Shown in pieces: positions 1,131 to 14,486 of a stretch of DNA of 64,000 nucleotides. The notes under the pieces were generated by a model. It was not told the DNA's origin and made no database searches. It saw only the letters and a program-made list of their open reading frames with translations. Numbering within the stretch: position 1 is the stretch's first letter; each line of letters opens with the position of its first letter. A program made the position numbers and the translations under genes. The DNA lies in assembly GCF_001610875.1 (NCBI RefSeq), contig NZ_CP011272.1, positions 3,639,988-3,703,987 of the forward strand. The letters run 5' to 3'. The stretch is from Pirellula sp. SH-Sr6A (GTDB lineage Bacteria; Planctomycetota; Planctomycetia; Pirellulales; Pirellulaceae).

Positions 1131-3542
1131 ATGACTTTATTTCGATTGATAGTTGGATTTTCTCTGGCTTGGTTTTGTCTCACCTCGTGCGCGTCCTATG
1201 CGGCCGACAAAACGCCACTCACGATTCCGGACCTCACCAAAGGGGAGGTCATACCTCCAGAATCCAAGCACGATTGGAATCTTGGCCCAACAGGCTTGCG
1301 TGGGTGGATGTATTGCGACAAGCTGGTCACGACTGATGCGAGGCAGATTGCAATTACCAAGGTGGAAGAGAACTCTCCTGCTGACGGCGCTCTTGCGGTA
1401 GGCGATGTGATTCTGGGGGTCGGGGGCAAACCATTTTCGTACGACCCTCGAACAGAGGTTGGAAAAGCGATTACATGGGCTGAGTCTGAGGCGGGTGGTG
1501 GACGACTTGCTCTGTTACGATGGCGAAATGGCACAGTCGATGACGTCGAATTGAAGCTTCCGATCTTAGGAAGCTTTAGTACGACCGCTCCATATGATTG
1601 CTCGAAATCCGAGCAAATACTTCTACGAGGGTTGAAGTCGCTTGAAGCTCGGATGTCAGCCCCTGGTTACTCGAGCTCCACGGATCCTATCCCGCGTTCC
1701 TTGAATGCACTGGCTCTGTTAGCCAGTGGTGAACCGGCTTATCAACGGCTACTTCAGCGAGAGGCATCGTGGGCTGCGAGCTTTACCCGGGAAGACTTTC
1801 GTACCTGGTATTATGGCTACGTTATGATTTTCTTGGCCGAATACACCCAGGCCACAGGAGATAACTCCTTCCTTCCCGGGTTGCGACGATTGGCCAGAGA
1901 GGCTGCGAGCGGTCAAAGTGCCGTTGGCTCTTGGGGGCACACCTTTGCACTCCCTGATGGTCGGCTGCGAGGCTACGGGATGATGAATTCACCGGGATTA
2001 CCCCTCACGATCGGAATGGTTCTCGCTCGAGAAGCTGGTGTGAACCACAGCGAAGTCACGGAGGCTATTGATCGCAGCGCGAGACTTTTACGATTCTATG
2101 CGGGCAAAGGAGCGGTGCCTTACGGCGACCATGCCGCTTGGATGGAGACGCATGAGGACAACGGTAAATGTGGTATGGCGGCCGTCCTATTTCATTTACT
2201 CGGTGAAACCGGCAGCGCAGACTTTTTTACCCGGATGGCAGTAGCCTCGCATAGTGGGGAACGGGATTGTGGTCACACCGGCAACTACTTCAATATCCTG
2301 TGGTCTCTACCTGCCATTGCGCAGGCAGGCCCCAATGCCACAGGGGCATGGACGAAGGAGTTTGGTGCTTGGTACCACGATCTGGCTCGACGATGGGGTG
2401 GATCATTTGCCCATCAAGGCCCCCCCGAACCCAGTTTCGATAGCTACCAAGGTTGGGATGCGACCGGCGCTTACTTACTCGCATACTCGCTGCCTCGTAA
2501 GAAGATTACGATCACAGGCAAAGGGGCGAGGAATGTGCCGCAGATTTCGCTTCACAGAGCAGAAAGTCTTATCGCCGATGGGCGCGGTTGGGATAATAAG
2601 GACCGTAACACAGCCTATGATCGATTGGACGATCAAGACCTTTTATCACGTCTTGGCTCATGGTCGCCAATCGTGCGTGAGCGGGCCGCCATGGCCCTTG
2701 CCAAACGAAAGTCGCCCCCCGTTTCCGCGATGATCGCGCTTCTGGAATCGGGCTCCATCGAGGCTCGAATGGGAGCCTGCGTCGCGTTCGAGAAACTGCG
2801 AGGCAGGGCTGCAGAAGCAGTCCCCACGCTCCAGCTTGCACTGAAGCATGACAATATGTGGCTCCGCGTTTGCGCTGCCTCTGCACTATCCAAGATTGGA
2901 AAACCCGCGATAGCCGCGCTTCCCGATTTGCTAGGAATGATCGATCGTGTTCCATCACCCGAGGATCCGCGGGGCATGGAGCAGAGATTTGTTTCTCTCG
3001 CGATATTCGATGAAATGCTTCGCGTCCCGAATGCGATGGAAGGCGTGGATCGTGATCAGTTACGGTTGGCGATTGCAAGCGGCCTGCGAAACCAAGATGG
3101 TCGTGCCCGAAGCGAAATCAGCTCCATCTACAATCGCCTTCGCTACGAAGATCTTCAACCACTCCTACCAGCCATCCTCGAAGCGATCGAAAAGCCGGCA
3201 CCCAGCGGAGAGATGTTTGCCGATGGTGTGCGTTTAAATGGTTTGAAAGTGCTCGCTACCCATCACATCGAAGAAGGAATCCAAGCGTGTGCTGATTATT
3301 TGCGAACTCAAAATCCTTGGGCCAGCGAGAAGCGGACGCCCGAGATTCTTGAGATCCTGACGATGTACGGTGAACACGCACAGCGGGTCATCCCGCACTT
3401 AAGCGAAACGGCGGCGATGTTCGAGCAAGGGGAGTTGAACTTTCCCAAGAAGTTCAGCCGACAGAAGGCAGAGGCGGTGAGAGCTACTATCAAAAGCATC
3501 GGATCTTCCAAAGAACGGCCCTCATTGCGTCGGATCAACTAA
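1131..3542 (+). CDS. DUF6288-type secreted protein with PDZ domain and HEAT repeats
   Basis: An 803-residue exported protein. The N-terminus has a hydrophobic signal with either a lipobox (LTSC, Cys20) or a signal peptidase I site after ASYA. Residues about 50-145 form a PDZ-like domain (IAITKVEENSPADGALAVGD and GGKPFSYD). The middle is an all-helical region, perhaps an alpha/alpha toroid, with a conserved-looking Cys/His-rich segment (HEDNGKCGM, GERDCGHTGNYFN). Residues about 500-620 contain HEAT-like repeats such as LGSWSPIVRERAAMALAKR. This architecture matches the DUF6288 family found in planctomycetes and verrucomicrobia. The function is not known; PDZ and HEAT modules suggest peptide or protein binding outside the cytoplasm. 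The 3' end faces the repeat array. Confidence 0.8.
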   Translation: MTLFRLIVGFSLAWFCLTSCASYAADKTPLTIPDLTKGEVIPPESKHDWNLGPTGLRGWMYCDKLVTTDARQIAITKVEENSPADGALAVGDVILGVGGKPFSYDPRTEVGKAITWAESEAGGGRLALLRWRNGTVDDVELKLPILGSFSTTAPYDCSKSEQILLRGLKSLEARMSAPGYSSSTDPIPRSLNALALLASGEPAYQRLLQREASWAASFTREDFRTWYYGYVMIFLAEYTQATGDNSFLPGLRRLAREAASGQSAVGSWGHTFALPDGRLRGYGMMNSPGLPLTIGMVLAREAGVNHSEVTEAIDRSARLLRFYAGKGAVPYGDHAAWMETHEDNGKCGMAAVLFHLLGETGSADFFTRMAVASHSGERDCGHTGNYFNILWSLPAIAQAGPNATGAWTKEFGAWYHDLARRWGGSFAHQGPPEPSFDSYQGWDATGAYLLAYSLPRKKITITGKGARNVPQISLHRAESLIADGRGWDNKDRNTAYDRLDDQDLLSRLGSWSPIVRERAAMALAKRKSPPVSAMIALLESGSIEARMGACVAFEKLRGRAAEAVPTLQLALKHDNMWLRVCAASALSKIGKPAIAALPDLLGMIDRVPSPEDPRGMEQRFVSLAIFDEMLRVPNAMEGVDRDQLRLAIASGLRNQDGRARSEISSIYNRLRYEDLQPLLPAILEAIEKPAPSGEMFADGVRLNGLKVLATHHIEEGIQACADYLRTQNPWASEKRTPEILEILTMYGEHAQRVIPHLSETAAMFEQGELNFPKKFSRQKAEAVRATIKSIGSSKERPSLRRIN

Positions 3543-3638
3543 ACCGATAGTGCAACCGATTCGCGATGAGAATAGCCTGCGGTTGGACGATGTATTTTTG
3601 ATCTGCTGTCTTCCATTGTGGATCTGTCGGCAATTGTC

Positions 3639-3962
3639 GATCTGTTGTCCTCAATAGATCTGGATCGCCTGACGCACCGCGCCAGTTAAGAATCTTTCCC
3701 CTCAGGCGATTGGCTAGAGAGCTTGGGGGGAGAAGTGGTTTGGTCGATAGAGTGGTGATCTATAGCGCTGAAACGGTCGAGGACGACCGTTCAACATGTC
3801 GATCTGTTGTCCTCAACAGATCAGGATCGCCTAACGCGCCGCGCCAGTTAAGAATCTTTCCCCCGGGCGATTGGCTAGAGAGCTTGGAGGTAGAGGTGGT
3901 TTGGTCGATAGAGTGGTGGTCTAAAGCGAGGAAACGGACGAGGACGACCGTTCGACATTGTC
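3639..3962. repeat. Tandem ~162-bp units U1 and U2
   Basis: U1 starts at 3639 and U2 at 3801, exactly 162 bp apart. Each unit opens with a hairpin: stem GATCTGTTG, loop TCCT, then CAACAGATC. U1 has one G:U-compatible change in this stem. Near its end each has a second hairpin: AACGGTCG, loop AGGA, then CGACCGTT (3772-3791 in U1; one mismatch in U2). A longer-range pairing ATCGCC with GGCGAT also exists, extended to 9 bp in U1. Confidence 0.9.
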
Positions 3963-4383
3963 GATCTGTTGTCCTCAACAGATCAGCATCGCCTAACGCA
4001 TCGCGCCAGTTAAGAATCTTTCCCCCCGGTTCTGTCCAGCCGGTTGTTTCTTCAGACGACGTTTAGGAGAAACGATACCGGCGAGAGCGTTGCGAAGCGA
4101 GCGGTCGTTCGTCCGCGCCAAGGATAGCAATGCGAATCGAGCGGTCGTTCGTCCGCGCCAAAGATCCTGAAAGGATCGAAGCTTGTAGCCGGGGGGTTGA
4201 GCGCAGCGACACCCCCGGGTTGCGTCCCATACCCTCTCTTATCCCGAAGGGATTAAAGATCCGTCTTGCATCCCTTCGGGATGCGTTGACCTTGGTACAC
4301 CCACCGGGGGTGTCGCTTACGCTCAACCCCCGGCTAATGGCTCAAGTCCTTTCAGGACAAAAGAAAAGACCGTACGACATGTC
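3963..4383. repeat. Truncated unit U3 followed by a spacer block and palindrome 1
   Basis: U3 keeps the first ~64 bases of the unit (hairpin at 3963-3984), then switches to a different block beginning TTCTGTCCAGCCGG. In that block a ~40-bp segment around GAGCGGTCGTTCGTCCGCGC occurs twice in tandem, then the nested palindrome begins. The same junction recurs at U7 (4868), where the ~40-bp segment is present only once. Confidence 0.85.
4165..4357. repeat. Nested palindrome 1 (REP/BIME-like), 193 bp
   Basis: Three pairs of inverted arms are nested. The outer pair is TCCTGAAAGGA (4165-4175) against TCCTTTCAGGA (4347-4357). The middle pair is a ~34-base arm starting TAGCCGGGGG (about 4186-4219) against its near-complement ending CCCCCGGCTA (about 4302-4336). 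The inner pair is ATCCCGAAGGGAT (4241-4253) against ATCCCTTCGGGAT (4270-4282). Every arm can also fold on its own as a short hairpin. The left middle arm is preceded by GTAG (4185-4188), the foot tetranucleotide of classical REP elements. Confidence 0.85.
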
Positions 4384-4867
4384 GATCTGTTGTCCTCAAC
4401 AGATCAGGATCGCCTATCGCGCCGCGCCAGTTAAGAATCTTTCCCCCGGGCGATTGGCTAGAGAGCATGGGGGGAGAAGTGGTTTGGTCGATAGAGTGGT
4501 GATCTATAGCGCTGAAACGGTCGAGGACGACCGTTCAACATGTCGATCTGTTGTCCTCAACAGATCAGGATCGCCTAACGCGCCGCGCCAGTTAAGAATC
4601 TTTCCCCCGGGCGATTGGCTAGAGAACTTGGGGGGAGAAGTGGTTTGGTCGATAGAGTGGTGGTCTAAAGCGCGGAAACGGTCGAGGACGACCGTTCGAC
4701 ATGTCGATCTGTTGTCCTCAACAGATCTGGATCGCCTGACGCGCCGCGCCAGCTAGGAATCTTTCCCCCGGGCGATTGGCTAGAGAACTTGGGGGGAGAA
4801 GTGGTTTGGTCGATAGAGTGGTGGTCTAAAGCGCGGAAACGGTCGAGGACGACCGTTCGACATTGTC
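4384..4867. repeat. Tandem ~162-bp units U4, U5 and U6
   Basis: Units start at 4384, 4545 and 4706, spaced 161-162 bp. All three carry a perfect first hairpin with loop TCCT and a perfect second hairpin with loop AGGA. They differ from U1 and U2 only by scattered substitutions, for example GATCTATAGCGCTG against GTCTAAAGCGCGG before the second hairpin. Confidence 0.9.
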
Positions 4868-5249
4868 GATCTGTTGTCCTCAACAGATCAGCATCGCCTA
4901 ACGCATCGCGCCAGTTAAGAATCTTTCCCCCCGGTTCTGTCCAGCCGGTTGTTTCTTCAGACGACGTTTAGGAGAAACGATACCGGCGAGAGCGTTGCGA
5001 AGCGAGCGGTCGTTCGTCCGCGCCAAAGATCCTGAAAGGATCGAAGCTTGTAGCCGGGGGGTTGAGCGCAGCGACACCCCCGGGTTGCGTCCCATACATT
5101 GTCTTATCCCGAAGGGATTAAAGATTCGTCTTGCATCCCGACGGGATGCGTTGACCTTGTTACATCCACCGGGGGTGTCGCTAATCGCTCAACCCCCGGC
5201 TAATGTCTCAAGTCCTTTCAGGACAAAAGAGACGACCGTTCGACATGTC
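4868..5249. repeat. Truncated unit U7, spacer block and palindrome 2
   Basis: This is a second copy of the U3 block and palindrome, about 905 bp downstream of the first. The spacer block lacks the ~40-bp internal duplication. The offset of 905-906 bp also relates U1 to U5 and U2 to U6, so a larger segment was probably duplicated as a whole. Confidence 0.85.
5030..5223. repeat. Nested palindrome 2 (REP/BIME-like), 194 bp
   Basis: It has the same architecture as palindrome 1. The outer arms are TCCTGAAAGGA (5030-5040) and TCCTTTCAGGA (5213-5223). GTAG is at 5050-5053. The inner arms are ATCCCGAAGGGAT (5106-5118) and ATCCCGACGGGAT (5135-5147). Compared with palindrome 1, the right inner arm changed only in its loop while its own ATCCC/GGGAT stem was kept. 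Confidence 0.85.
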
Positions 5250-5430
5250 GATCTGTTGTCCTCAACAGATCAGGATCGCCTAACGCGCCGCGCCAATTAA
5301 GAATCTTCCCCCCGGGCGATTGGCTAGAGAGCTTGGAGGGAGAGGTGGTTTGGTGGATAGAGTGGTGGTCTAAAGCGCTGAAACGGTCGAGGACGACCGT
5401 TCGACAACGGACGAACGTTCGACATGATAG
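5250..5430. repeat. Last ~162-bp unit U8 with degenerate tail
   Basis: A full unit starts at 5250 with both hairpins intact. It is followed by a decayed partial repeat (GTTCGACAACGGACGAACG) and a G-rich stretch before the stop codon of the minus-strand DUF1501 gene. Confidence 0.85.
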
Positions 5431-5446
5431 GGTTAGGGGGCGACGG

Positions 5447-6835
5447 TTAGGCTAGGATCTTTTGGAGAACTTGGCCGTGGACATCGGTCAAGCGGAAGTT
5501 GCGTCCGGCGTAGCGGTACGTCAATCGCTCGTGATCGAGGCCCAGGAGATGGAGGATGGTGGCATGCCAATCGTGGATATGGCACTTGTCCTCTACCGCC
5601 TGGTATCCCAACTCGTCGGTGGCGCCATAGCTGAAGCCTCCGCGGACACCTCCACCAGCCATCCAAGTCGTGTAACCTTTGTGGTTATGGTCACGGCCGT
5701 CGCCGTTTTGGGCATCCGGGGTTCGTCCGAATTCTCCACCCCAGATTACGAGGGTTTCATCCAGGAGCCCGCGTTGTTTCAGGTCTTCGAGAAGGCCGGC
5801 GATCGGTTTGTCGATCTCTCGGCAGTTTTGGGGCAGTTGGGTCGAAAGACGTTGATGATGATCCCAATTTCCATGAGTCACTTCCACGAAGCGAACGCCG
5901 GACTCGATGAATCGTCGTGCCATCAAGCATTGGCGACCGAAGCCGTCCGTGTCCCGTTCATCAATACCATAGAGAGCTAGTGTCTTCGCAGATTCATCTT
6001 GGATATCCATCAACTTCGGTACAACGTCTTGCATACGGAACGCAAGCTCGTAGGACTCGATCAGCCCTTCGACCTCCGGCTGCACAACCTCCCGTTCCAG
6101 TTTCTGACGATTGAGCTCTTGTAAGAAATTGAGTTGCAGGCGTTGCTCCTTTTTAGCCAGCCGGGTGTTGGTCATATCCGGAATGGGGGGAGTTGTATTG
6201 TTGTTTCGATCGCGCAGCATGGCGGCTCCTCGGCCTTGGGACCGGCCAATTTTCGTTCCGCTGTAAATGGCGGGGAGAAAGGAGCTGCCGAAATTCTGTG
6301 CTGAAGCTGCAGGGGGATTGAGAGCGATGAATCCCGGCATGCTCTCGTTTTCTGTCCCTAGTCCATAGAGCGTCCAAGCTCCCAGTGAGGGGCGAACAAA
6401 TTGGGCGGTCCCTGTGTGCATTTGAGTCATGGCTCGAGTATGAATCGGTTGATCGCAGTGCATCGAGCGGATCAAGCAAAGAGAATCCGCGTGCTTTCCC
6501 AACTCGGGGAACAACTCGGAAATCCATAACCCGCTTTTTCCTTGCTGCTGAAAGGACCATGGGGATGCGAGCAGTGGGCTGAATCCTGGACGTCCGCTAC
6601 GCTCGTTGGACTTGCCAAGTTCCGGTTTGTAATCGAAGGTGTCGACGTGCGACGGGCCACCTTGCATGCAGAGAAAGATCACTCGCTTTGCTTTCGCAGG
6701 AAAGTGAGACGCTTTGGGGGCCAGGGGATTGCCTTCACCCGATTGCTGAGCCTGTAGCGTCGAGAGTCCGGAGAACGCAAGGAATCCGAAGCCGGCGGAG
6801 GCGGATTGGAGAATTTCACGTCGGGAGTAGATCAT
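5447..6835 (-). CDS. DUF1501 domain protein, Tat-exported
   Basis: A 462-residue protein of the planctomycete DUF1501 family, which is related in fold to the alkaline phosphatase/sulfatase superfamily. The N-terminus carries a twin-arginine motif SRREIL (residues 4-9) before a hydrophobic stretch, so export in folded form is likely. Family motifs are QGGPSHVDTFDYKP (about 58-71) and GEFGRTPDAQNGDGRDH (from residue 367). It is the last gene of a minus-strand operon after the PSD1 cytochrome, 90 bp away. This pairing is characteristic of planctomycetes and the two proteins are assumed to act together outside the cytoplasm. The substrate is unknown. Confidence 0.93.
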   Translation of the reverse strand: MIYSRREILQSASAGFGFLAFSGLSTLQAQQSGEGNPLAPKASHFPAKAKRVIFLCMQGGPSHVDTFDYKPELGKSNERSGRPGFSPLLASPWSFQQQGKSGLWISELFPELGKHADSLCLIRSMHCDQPIHTRAMTQMHTGTAQFVRPSLGAWTLYGLGTENESMPGFIALNPPAASAQNFGSSFLPAIYSGTKIGRSQGRGAAMLRDRNNNTTPPIPDMTNTRLAKKEQRLQLNFLQELNRQKLEREVVQPEVEGLIESYELAFRMQDVVPKLMDIQDESAKTLALYGIDERDTDGFGRQCLMARRFIESGVRFVEVTHGNWDHHQRLSTQLPQNCREIDKPIAGLLEDLKQRGLLDETLVIWGGEFGRTPDAQNGDGRDHNHKGYTTWMAGGGVRGGFSYGATDELGYQAVEDKCHIHDWHATILHLLGLDHERLTYRYAGRNFRLTDVHGQVLQKILA

Positions 6836-9622: not shown

Positions 9623-10516
9623 CTATGATCGGTCGTCGTCGCTAGGGCGTCGCGGGCGAACAGGACCTTCGCTCCCTCCGCGATCAGGACCGCGACCCGC
9701 ACCGGGGCCACCTATCCGATCGCGAAACATTTCCGTGGCACGTTCGACTTCATCGCGTGAAATGGCGCCATCTCCGTTTTGATCGATCCGTTCCATTCGG
9801 TCACGCATGGGTTCGGGAATCTCATCGCCGCTCAGTTTGCCGTCATCGTTTGCATCGCGTGATTTGAACATGCGGAGCATGAGAGCGGGGCCACCTTGCG
9901 GGCCCATAGGACCTTCGCCGTCACCCTGACGTCCCATCGCATTCGCCATCGCCCTGGGATCTGGACGCATTTCATCGAGGGTTAGTTTGCCGTCGCCGTT
10001 TTTATCGAGTCGGTGGAGAGCTTTCGAAGCATTTTCGATTTCGGATGCGGAGAGTTCTCCATCGGAGTCTGCGTCCAAGGCGGCGAGGACGGGCATCATT
10101 CGCATGAACGCGCCTGCTCCCATTCCTCCAGGTCCGGGTCCGCCAGGGAACCCTGGCCCGCCTGGACCGGGTCGACCCTCGGGTGGGCGTCCAGGCCCAC
10201 GACCTTCTGGCCCACGTCCTTCTGGCCCGCGTCCTTCTGGCCCGCGTCCTTCTGGCCCGCGTCCTTCTGGCCCGCGTCCGCGACCTTCACCGGGGCCACG
10301 ACCTTCAGGTCCGCGTTCGCCGCGCCCTCGTTCTGCTTCGCCTGGTGGGGGACCGCGGCGTCGGCCTTCTTCGCGAGGACCTTCGTCTCCGGGGCGGCCT
10401 TCCGGTCGATCGCGGTTTTCACCTCGGCGGTTGGGGCGGTCGTCGTTTTCTTGAGCGAGGAGGGGTTGTGGGAGCGCCAATGCTGACAGCGCCAGGGCCC
10501 AGAGTTTGCGGTTCAT
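9623..10516 (-). CDS. Secreted EF-hand protein with Gly/Pro/Arg/Glu-rich repeat
   Basis: I choose the ATG at 10516, which gives 297 residues starting MNRKLWALALSALALP, a clean signal peptide. The longer frame to 10693 adds an unlikely 59-residue extension. After the signal come a charged low-complexity stretch with GPEGR repeats and then four EF-hand-like loops: DADSDGELSASE, DKNGDGKLTLDE, DANDDGKLSGDE and DQNGDGAISRDE. These have the D-x-D/N-x-D-G spacing for calcium binding. It is the first gene of the EF-hand / PSD1 / DUF1501 operon. A calcium-binding extracellular role for the protein is inferred. Confidence 0.88.
   Translation of the reverse strand: MNRKLWALALSALALPQPLLAQENDDRPNRRGENRDRPEGRPGDEGPREEGRRRGPPPGEAERGRGERGPEGRGPGEGRGRGPEGRGPEGRGPEGRGPEGRGPEGRGPGRPPEGRPGPGGPGFPGGPGPGGMGAGAFMRMMPVLAALDADSDGELSASEIENASKALHRLDKNGDGKLTLDEMRPDPRAMANAMGRQGDGEGPMGPQGGPALMLRMFKSRDANDDGKLSGDEIPEPMRDRMERIDQNGDGAISRDEVERATEMFRDRIGGPGAGRGPDRGGSEGPVRPRRPSDDDRS
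10197..10281. repeat. 15-bp tandem repeat encoding GPEGR
   Basis: About five to six nearly identical 15-bp units (GGCCCGCGTCCTTCT on the plus strand) lie within the EF-hand gene and encode GPEGR repeats on the minus strand. Copy number is likely to vary between strains through slippage. Confidence 0.85.
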
Positions 10517-11406: not shown

Positions 11407-14400
11407 ACGATCCATCTGCGTTCGATAGCGATACCACCCGCCACCCCGTCGACGTTTTAGCGGAGGAATTCGCAGACCGACTTCGCAATGGGGAGCACCC
11501 CTCGATCGATGAGTATGTGACGCGATTCCCGCAATATGCAGAGGTCTTGCGCAGTGTGCTGGAGCCGATCGAAGCCGTCGAAAGGGTTTCATCCCTGCAC
11601 GCAGCTCAGCAAGCGATGCAGTCGATGAGACCGCCCAAGCAATTGGGGGACTTTCGAATTGTTCGGGAGCTGGGTCGAGGGGGGATGGGGATTGTCTACG
11701 AGGCTGTGCAGCGTTCGCTCAATCGACGAGTCGCATTGAAGGTGATCAACGCGATGATCTCCGACACCGAGCAGAATCGTAACCGGTTTCAACGCGAAGC
11801 GGAGTCGGTCGCGGGTTTGCACCATACGAATATTGTTCAAGTTTATGGGAGCGGGCAGGACCAAGGTGTCCACTACTATGCAATGCAACTGATCGACGGT
11901 GTTCCGCTCGACCAATTGATCGATTGTCTCGTTCATCGCTCTCCCAATTCGGGCTACCTCGATTCGCATCGATTCACAACGGCACACGCGGTTAGGATGC
12001 TGCTCTCCTCCTCTCGCCATCGCGGGTCGCACCCGATCTCGAGCAGTGCGGAACCGAAAGATCCGACGTTAGGTACCGATGGTACGCTACCAATCGGCGT
12101 AGAGGCTACCGAACCGATTCGTGCACCCGAGAGCACGGCATCTCCCAAGGAAATGGACTCTACTCTCTCTCGAGAATATTTTCGCAATGTTGCACGCTTG
12201 GTCGGTGACGTTGCCAACGCCTTGGACTACGCACACCGTCAAAAAGTGTTGCATCGGGATATCAAGCCCGCCAATTTGATTCTCGATCGCGATGGTATTG
12301 TTTGGATCACCGATTTTGGGTTGGCACGGAGGGTGGATACCGACATCGCGACGCGAACGGGGGAATTGCTTGGGACGCTTCGATACATGGCCCCAGAACA
12401 AATCGCAGGGAAGGGGGATCATCGAATCGACATCTACAGTCTTGGGCTCTGTCTCTTTGAGTTGCTCGCTCTTCGCCCCGCTTTCGAATCTCCCAAGCAG
12501 CGATTGTTAGATCCGAAGGTCTATTCGACGCTTCCCAGCCTAAGAGCCATCAACCCGAGCATCCCTCGAGACCTGGAGACGATCGCATTGAAAGCGTGCG
12601 CGTTGGAACCGAAGGATCGCTATGCTTCCGCCAGCGCGTTGGAAGTCGACTTGAGACGGTTCCTGGAGGATCGTCCTATTCTGGCCCGCAAAGCGACGCG
12701 ATGGGAAAGTTTGGTTCGGTGGAGCCGGCGCAATCCGGCAATCGCCTCGTTGCTCGCACTGTCTGCCAGTATGTTGCTGGCGATCGCGGGAATTCTGGCT
12801 TATACCAACCACGTCCAGCAACAGTCGTTGGAACAAATCCGTGAACTGTACGAGGAGGCAGGCGACACGCTGCGGGAAAAAACGCAAGCCCTCGAGAATG
12901 AGCAGCGAGAAAAAGCTCGGGCCGAAGGCAATTTGCAGCTCGCCATGCAAGCGTTCGATCAGATCATCGCCAACATTTCGGCTCGTGGAAGCACGATTGC
13001 ATCGGATATCGAATCGGAAAACGATGATTCCTTTGAGGTGAGCGAGGCTGCCCTAAGCCAAGCCGATGTGATGCTACTGGAGTCGCTTCTTGGTTACTTT
13101 GAGAAGCTGAGTCAGCAGAACGCCAAAGATCTTCGCTTGGAAACAGCTTCAGCTCGCAAGCGAGTGGGGGATCTACAATTCCGACTGGGAAAACTCCCGG
13201 AGGCAGAGCAGTCCTATCAACAGGCACTGACCGAATTTCAGGCATTGATGAAGCAAGCCGATGCACCGAATGACGGCCCCGAACTGCCATTGTTTGAGGC
13301 GATTCATTCCCAAGCGGAAGTGTTTCACTCTTTGATGCTCACCACCGCGATGCAACGCAGAATGGTTCCCGCATTGCAGTATTTTGACCAAGCGAGAACG
13401 ATGCTAGAGTCCAACGCCGAGTACGCAGCATCGCCGGCCGGACGATTCGATTTGGCTAGGCTCCTAAATAGTGTGGGAACGCTCGCGTCGCGAGCACCGA
13501 TGCAGGGGAGGGGGCGCATGTTTGGGCCGCTGGGAGGAGGACCTCCCGGTTTTCGTCCACCCAATGGTGAAGGACCTCCACCCGGTCCTATGGGGGAATT
13601 GCGTCAGCGCAAAGAAAGTGAATTGAATCGCGAAGCCCTGCGACTTCTGGAAGGGCTGGTTCAGGAGGATGCTGGGAACACCTCCTACCGATTGGCGCTC
13701 GCGCATGCGTTGCGAGACGAAGTCCGAATCGAACGCCAACGCGGGGATCGCGCGGCAGCGGAAAGTGCGCTCGAGCAATCGATCGCTCTTTTAGAAACCC
13801 TGGTCAAGGATTATCCCAACTCCAACAAGTATCTTTATGAGTTGGCGGAGACGCTGGTGCTCGTCGGGCCATTCCGTTCTATGGAATCCTCGCCCTTGCC
13901 TCGCGCGCTGGAAATCAGTGAGAAGTTGATCAGCGAGAATCCAGCCAACCCCGCCTATTTGTCTTTGAAGGCCATGACGCTGGTTCGTCTGAGCGACGCG
14001 GTTCGTCCTCCTCCGCTTGGAATGGGACGCAATAAGCGGGGGCAAGAGTTGTTGGAGCAGGCTCTCGCCATCCAACAGAGCTTGGTCGATCGTTACAGCG
14101 ATGTACCGATCTATGTCGGCAATTTGGTCGATATTCTCATTCGATTGTCCGACTTGGAAGCGAGCGCTGAGAAATCCAAAGAATATCGCGATCGAGCCGT
14201 CGATTTGGTTCGCACGCGAGATCCAAGAATGGGACCTCGCGAAATCCAGCAATGGGTCGATCGAACGCGCGAGCGCCGTCAGAACATGGAGATGCGCCCG
14301 AGACCTGGGTCGGGACCGGGCCCCGGACCTGGGTCGGGACCTAGGCCTTTGGCTGGGACTGAACCGGTGCCTGAACTGGTGCCTGAACTGGTGCCTGAAC

Positions 14401-14486
14401 TGGTGCCTGAACTGGTGCCTGAACTGGGGCCTGAACTGGGGCCTGAACTGGGGCCTGGACCGGAGCCCCCTCCGCCTCGCTATTGA
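11403..14486 (+). CDS. Transmembrane Ser/Thr protein kinase with coiled coil and TPR-like repeats
   Basis: A 1027-residue kinase. Residues 1-70 resemble the N-terminal segment seen before planctomycete kinases (NGEHPSIDEYVTRFPQY). The kinase domain spans about 83-425: glycine loop GRGGMGIVYE (91-100), Lys113, catalytic HRDIKPANL (284-292), DFG (304-306) and GTLRYMAPEQ. An insertion of ~65 polar residues precedes the catalytic loop. One transmembrane helix lies at about 446-466, then a coiled coil and TPR-like helices reaching outside the membrane. The tail is low-complexity Gly/Pro followed by a PELV repeat. It overlaps the sigma gene by 4 bp and xerC, on the opposite strand, by 7 bp. Confidence 0.93.
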   Translation: MNDPSAFDSDTTRHPVDVLAEEFADRLRNGEHPSIDEYVTRFPQYAEVLRSVLEPIEAVERVSSLHAAQQAMQSMRPPKQLGDFRIVRELGRGGMGIVYEAVQRSLNRRVALKVINAMISDTEQNRNRFQREAESVAGLHHTNIVQVYGSGQDQGVHYYAMQLIDGVPLDQLIDCLVHRSPNSGYLDSHRFTTAHAVRMLLSSSRHRGSHPISSSAEPKDPTLGTDGTLPIGVEATEPIRAPESTASPKEMDSTLSREYFRNVARLVGDVANALDYAHRQKVLHRDIKPANLILDRDGIVWITDFGLARRVDTDIATRTGELLGTLRYMAPEQIAGKGDHRIDIYSLGLCLFELLALRPAFESPKQRLLDPKVYSTLPSLRAINPSIPRDLETIALKACALEPKDRYASASALEVDLRRFLEDRPILARKATRWESLVRWSRRNPAIASLLALSASMLLAIAGILAYTNHVQQQSLEQIRELYEEAGDTLREKTQALENEQREKARAEGNLQLAMQAFDQIIANISARGSTIASDIESENDDSFEVSEAALSQADVMLLESLLGYFEKLSQQNAKDLRLETASARKRVGDLQFRLGKLPEAEQSYQQALTEFQALMKQADAPNDGPELPLFEAIHSQAEVFHSLMLTTAMQRRMVPALQYFDQARTMLESNAEYAASPAGRFDLARLLNSVGTLASRAPMQGRGRMFGPLGGGPPGFRPPNGEGPPPGPMGELRQRKESELNREALRLLEGLVQEDAGNTSYRLALAHALRDEVRIERQRGDRAAAESALEQSIALLETLVKDYPNSNKYLYELAETLVLVGPFRSMESSPLPRALEISEKLISENPANPAYLSLKAMTLVRLSDAVRPPPLGMGRNKRGQELLEQALAIQQSLVDRYSDVPIYVGNLVDILIRLSDLEASAEKSKEYRDRAVDLVRTRDPRMGPREIQQWVDRTRERRQNMEMRPRPGSGPGPGPGSGPRPLAGTEPVPELVPELVPELVPELVPELGPELGPELGPGPEPPPPRY
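14366..14461. repeat. 12-bp tandem repeat, eight units, at the 3' end of the kinase gene
   Basis: Five units of GGTGCCTGAACT run from 14366 to 14425, then two of GGGGCCTGAACT and a final variant GGGGCCTGGACC. They encode VPEL and GPEL repeats at the extreme C-terminus. The array is in frame (multiples of 4 residues), so length changes would not disrupt the gene. Confidence 0.95.

Follow-up and report, generated by a model that had tools for sequence, protein, structure and literature searches.

Within the 64,000-nt stretch of the Pirellula sp. SH-Sr6A genome analysed here (the window), positions 3501-5500 hold a tandem array of hairpin-bearing units. This array is very probably a run of REPINs, a known kind of element in which two repetitive extragenic palindromic (REP) sequences form paired hairpins, belonging to a divergent REP-associated tyrosine transposase (RAYT) of the same organism. 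We favor this assignment because copies of the unit are found genome-wide, the two hairpins are laid out in inverted fashion, the RAYT gene is flanked by units of the same family and its product retains conserved catalytic motifs. In addition, related species show RAYT genes flanked by hairpins, with compensatory stem changes between species.

The initial annotation had described eight hairpin units of ~162 bp, and this was borne out by Tandem Repeats Finder, which returned a 161/162-bp period in the array, and by a listing of the hairpins. The units are as follows:

3635-3796, + strand: unit 1, left REP hairpin 3636-3660 (one G:U pair), right inverted REP hairpin 3771-3795
3797-3957, + strand: unit 2, left hairpin 3798-3822, right hairpin 3932-3956 (one mismatch)
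3959-4379, + strand: unit 3, composite, left hairpin 3960-3984, second half replaced by a longer segment
4380-4540, + strand: unit 4, left hairpin 4381-4405, right hairpin 4515-4539
4541-4701, + strand: unit 5, the reference unit, left hairpin 4542-4566, linker 4567-4675, right hairpin 4676-4700
4702-4862, + strand: unit 6, left hairpin 4703-4727, right hairpin 4837-4861
4864-5245, + strand: unit 7, composite, left hairpin 4865-4889, closely matching unit 3 apart from a 40-bp gap
5246-5406, + strand: unit 8, left hairpin 5247-5271, right hairpin 5381-5405

The left hairpin consists of GTC, a 9-bp stem and a TCCT loop (GTC + GATCTGTTG-TCCT-CAACAGATC) and is present in all eight units, each time with GTC followed by G as a tag at its 5' foot. 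Its stem is perfect in seven units and carries a single G:U-compatible change in unit 1, as had been annotated. Right hairpins looped by AGGA likewise occur in all six full-length units; the 8-bp stem ascribed to them holds in five, while the sixth (3932-3956) has an internal mismatch. The opposite strand of unit 5's closing hairpin reads GTC + GAACGGTCG-TCCT-CGACCGTTT, with the tag and loop of the left hairpin and a similar stem. The unit is thus two hairpins inverted to each other with the tags outermost, and this layout, with its spacer, is found in six of the eight units. A filter applied to both strands (GT tag, 9-bp stem with at least 8 pairs, TCCT or TCCC loop) gave 13 matches in 3501-5500 and none in the remaining window; therefore, chance is excluded as the source of these hairpins. 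Repeated hairpins in inverted layout could also suggest another kind of array, such as integron attC sites, clustered regularly interspaced short palindromic repeats (CRISPR) or IS605-type ends, a reading to which we give practically no credence.

The unit has 177 matches in the 6,534,136-base genome. Counting as full any match that starts at query position 3 or earlier and ends at 154 or later, the 19 fetched stretches contain 121 full-length units (147-170 in length) in 22 arrays, with up to 12 at a single locus, and a crude call of open reading frames (ORFs) places 24 array segments between ORFs. The stretch 1,545,316-1,681,501 alone accounts for 12 of the 22 arrays and 80 of the 121 units, in subfamilies about 68-76% identical to the window unit. 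Neighboring units lie directly against each other: at 104 of the 112 junctions scanned, 2-3 nt separate the GTC tags (6 nt in seven, 1 nt in one). Mean identity between units is 0.90 within arrays (375 pairs) vs. 0.75 between arrays (6,885 pairs), a greater likeness that we propose is due to local end-to-end duplication. Eight copies of GTCGTCCTCGAC were also seen at 4,104,809-4,106,151 (G000:C1), the last seven at about 150-bp spacing; this region is not among the listed matches of the 162-bp unit, and its copies are possibly REPINs with the same hairpin and a different linker.

The RAYT gene of this genome (1,680,501-1,681,208; 236 aa) has units of the same family on both sides. Its product carries an HUH motif and a single catalytic tyrosine: N151-H152-V153-H154, Y212, and N216 are invariant in ten sequences, its own included. 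Since a sequence search of solved structures gave no match for the protein, a fold comparison was made, and it showed the TnpA-REP fold. Among the 121 units the right loop varies, and in the subfamily near the gene the right stem is bulged. A second RAYT-like gene lies in the same genome (G000:C1 1,925,377-1,925,925), and the GTAG-tagged GCGGCG-TCC-CGCCGC hairpins in its flanks are apparently a different REP family.

In the mechanism that these features suggest, the RAYT would recognize in single-stranded DNA the tag and hairpin of each REP (9-bp stem, TCCT loop, GTC(G) tag at the 5' foot). The transposase would have moved units (REP, linker of about 110 bp, inverted REP) around the genome in trans, as has been proposed for other REP/RAYT systems, and the arrays would then have expanded locally through end-to-end duplication. 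Such tandem growth may not have needed the RAYT at all, proceeding by slippage or unequal exchange between copies. This is compatible with REPIN identity, and we consider it slightly favored, given the higher identity of units within arrays, the duplication of units 3 and 7 as composite blocks, and the tandem REPIN clusters described in Pseudomonas (PMC3116915). The evidence against it is weak: the junctions are very regular and units cluster around the RAYT gene, both of which would fit duplication too.

Among 27 genomes of the genus, including this one, the unit was found here and in one relative, G010, whereas RAYT relatives were found in 20. The wider genome scan yielded RAYT loci from Pirellula, Planctomyces, Rhodopirellula, Rubripirellula, other Planctomycetota, Verrucomicrobia, and one Candidatus Zipacnadia. 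Thirty-three loci were considered, that of this genome plus 32 from the scan, with gene fragments among them. In 24, hairpins with stems of at least 8 bp lie in both orientations within 1.2 kb of the RAYT gene, and in four they lie in one orientation; the own locus falls in the latter class because its right hairpins are bulged. This count took any loop sequence, most loops being TCC-like, and by comparison shuffles give about 0.05 such hairpins per kb and window 6001-64000 gives 0.03. With the strict filter, 20 loci picked for TCCT/TCCC-like loops gave 115 tagged hairpins vs. a mean of 0.02 in shuffles. At one locus (L044) the RAYT relative lies in two different frames, reflecting a broken gene or a sequencing error. 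G010 has 33 family matches, and each of the 12 loci fetched contains at least one tagged hairpin; no unit-length tandem repeat was found in any of the 12. Plasmid records gave no close match, and 20 stretches of viral contigs matched a pattern, none of them a RAYT relative by tblastn.

The initial annotation took the hairpins to be under selection for structure and proposed looking for homologous units and covariation in other genomes, a check that the hairpins passed, with the unit present in G010 and compensatory stem changes between species. An alignment (A3) of 24 REP hairpins, all but one (the window's) taken from RAYT loci, shows two-sided changes in seven of nine pairs. Its covariation score of 0.727 and 54 two-sided cells were reached by none of 500 shuffles, and slid structures scored at most 0.216, whereas 74 of 500 shuffles also reach seven two-sided pairs. 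Since rows were filtered for pairing, the 98.1% paired positions in A3 are partly so by construction; one misaligned row (L167) and two near-repeats (L039 and the second left hairpin of L040) were omitted. For the right hairpin, copies from this genome and G010 (8 distinct rows) show two-sided changes in three of nine pairs, equaled by 31 of 500 shuffles, and a covariation score of 0.274, reached by none of 500; in alignment A4, G010 loci were found through the unit match and hairpin positions through the pairing filter. Selection for structure is thus supported across species. Within the genome itself the comparison is uninformative, because the left stem hardly varies (the commonest form of each pair occurs in 117-120 of the 121 units).

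A more specific proposal of the annotation, that the units are structured RNA under selection in which a transcribed unit folds so that its TCCT and AGGA loops kiss, was not upheld, and we regard it as very improbable. Both hairpins are stable as RNA, and the exact loop pair faces each other in 100 of the 121 units. The other 21 comprise one matched change (TCCC/GGGA), six TCCT/GGGA units that could pair through G:U, and one unparsed right loop, the rest being mismatched or shorter. However, two hairpins that are inverted copies have complementary loops automatically, so that the complementarity is a by-product of inversion. Nor do the loops track each other, for only one of four TCCC left loops faces GGGA while six of seven GGGA right loops face TCCT. 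A TCCT loop stands opposite a 3-nt right loop, AGA, in five units, and is also paired with a 3-nt partner loop in three relatives (L064, L068, L078). Folding of the full unit is somewhat more favorable than that of shuffles (z of -2.3 on the + strand and -3.2 on the - strand), whereas for the 109-nt linker it is not (-0.34 and +0.05); therefore, the folding signal of the unit lies in its hairpins. A search against Rfam at gathering thresholds gave no match in the window. The longer pairing noted in unit 1, ATCGCCTGA/TCAGGCGAT, can be read in the sequence but did not prove to be a feature of the family, with exact GGCGAT in 20 of the 121 units, counting only the searched part of each. Recognition of DNA by a protein accounts best for the conservation of the hairpins, better than a kissing complex in RNA.

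In units 3 and 7 another segment has taken the place of most of the second half, so that the right hairpin is missing and, in unit 3, just the outermost bases of the right end are left. Block alignment shows the two to be near-identical composite blocks, and the replacing segment carries another inverted-repeat element:

4165-4357, no strand assigned: nested repeat family in unit 3, an imperfect inverted repeat with arms 4165-4195 and 4327-4357
5015-5244, no strand assigned: second copy of the nested repeat, 94% identical to 4150-4378

In this nested repeat a GTAG motif lies ahead of a CCGGGGG hairpin (4150-4378 and 5015-5244). Its 60 genomic matches are spread over more than 20 places, mostly within or beside the REPIN arrays and mostly in array orientation; the few away from arrays include those near 5,743,977, 2,607,796, 2,126,210, and 4,264,822.

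As had been annotated, the array lies between two convergent genes, which are context outside the element:

1131-3542, + strand: upstream gene encoding DUF6288 and HEAT repeats
5447-6835, - strand: downstream DUF1501 gene

The array was not seen at this place in either of two relatives. The DUF6288 orthologue in G010 (81% identical) faces, in convergent orientation and 133 bp away, a different gene, which from our own reading of the ORF would be an oxidoreductase, and the gap holds no array. In G020, a 70% relative faces a convergent DUF1501 homologue (38% identical) across about 620 bp, and nothing there matches the array. Elsewhere in the window, in-frame tandem repeats at 10194-10279 (15-bp) and 14359-14457 (12-bp) lie in long ORFs and encode low-complexity stretches.

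The position of the array bears on whether REPINs were later kept for a role at transcript ends, such as 3'-end protection or attenuation between genes. Some bacterial interspersed mosaic elements (BIMEs), as REPIN-type mosaics are called in E. coli, can have such roles. PMC3733652 also names termination and mRNA stabilization among the roles that have been hypothesized, and an intergenic site, here between convergent genes, and hairpins stable on both strands would suit them. However, just seven of the 24 array segments lie between convergent ORFs by the crude ORF call, four lying between divergent ones and 13 being codirectional or missing a neighbor on one side. Moreover, terminator-like sites number four against a shuffle mean of 2.2 (SD 1.5), which is not clearly higher, and the array is missing at the orthologous gene end in G010. 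We therefore consider a retained transcript-end role unlikely, though less so than a kissing RNA.

Several observations weigh against the assignment to a RAYT-driven REPIN family. Units were not seen to move, excise, or insert, and the one sign of movement in trans is indirect, the absence of the array from the orthologous gene end in G010. No RAYT was found in G010, a draft that is 82% complete, though it carries the elements, and 5 of the 33 RAYT loci have no flanking hairpin by the measure given above. In the stretches examined, no RAYT adjoins the 161-bp subfamily of the window. The G010 gap contains 12 nt identical to the opening half of that genome's own left REP, and so may hold an older, decayed REP. 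The window tag is GTCG and not the canonical GTAG or GTGG; the elements are therefore filed as GTNG REPs rather than canonical GT[AG]G ones. The protein scored 53.6 bits against the NCBIfam model for REP-associated tyrosine transposases (NF047646), below the cut-off of 80. Since its fold and flanks support a RAYT nonetheless, we treat it as a divergent RAYT and not as a member of that equivalog.

The family resembles the REPIN/RAYT system of Pseudomonas fluorescens SBW25 in its inverted REP doublets, dispersed extragenic copies, tandem REPIN clusters, and clusters beside RAYT genes (PMC3116915). It differs in that tandem units in SBW25 include flanking sequence, whereas the Pirellula units abut, and in its up to 12 full units per locus, GTCG tag, and linker of about 110 bp. 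The E. coli REP/BIME system with TnpA-REP (PDB 4ER8; PMC6006769, PMC8266576) differs in the bulge of its stem, the Pirellula stem being perfect, and in its tag, which is GTCG in Pirellula; the Pirellula RAYT is also larger, with 236 aa vs. 165 in the 4ER8 chain. A 5' tag, an 8-9-bp stem, a short loop, and dimers with outward tags are shared with the GTAG- and CGTC-tagged REPs of PMC3733652, which reports REPs in Planctomycetes, naming R. baltica, and allows GTMG degeneracy in some REP families. According to that paper, CGTC repeats, some of them reading TGTC, lack any association with transposase genes; in contrast, GTCG is the regular form in Pirellula and adjoins a RAYT. We found no description of this family in the literature searched on REP/RAYT systems and planctomycete repeats, subscription literature being mostly outside the search.

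Tags were surveyed at 82 distinct RAYT loci, counting identical protein stretches once and excluding 15 loci without a recognizable W motif. One tag occurs at least twice at 68 of these, three have a single tagged hairpin, and 11 have none. The repeated tags, mostly from Pirellulaceae, are GTCG (27 loci), GTAG (24), GTGG (8), GTAA (3), GTTG (3), and three others once each. An A precedes GTNG at position -3 in 76% of cases over 62 loci and holds over 58 loci after REPs with a neighboring tag within 30 nt are dropped; the three GTTG loci have T there. CA at -4 has a frequency of 0.34-0.36 vs. a background of 0.06. A third tag base coupled to the RAYT residue beside W191 (K here), which we take to be the position of E. 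coli Q95, was suggested by the first loci and was rejected, as 25 loci with Q carry GTCG. In PMC8266576, CT and CA cleavage sites are proposed to be chosen by tag bases 3,4 and 2,4, respectively. If a CA-type site is read by bases 2 and 4, tag base 3 would therefore be free. Conceivably, then, this RAYT branch has a CA-like cleavage site and adds REPINs one after another at existing unit ends, which would make transposition the way in which arrays grow, but we think this improbable, to about the same degree as a transcript-end role. Evidence that the third tag base retargets the cleavage dinucleotide is not clear: at fixed offsets upstream of the tag, the predicted dinucleotides stay at or below 0.31 in each of the three larger groups, and on the downstream side a predicted CG (0.41 at +4 in GTCG loci) is matched by an unpredicted one (0.38 at +3 in GTGG loci). 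The pattern of tag and cleavage site is a lead, not a result.

The finding is best read as one of mobile-element anatomy and not of a new RNA, and where hairpins are inverted copies of each other, complementary loops should not be taken as evidence of kissing. The set of REP/RAYT systems in Pirellulaceae, which includes all four bases at the third tag position, could be used to test whether the tag guides the choice of cleavage site.
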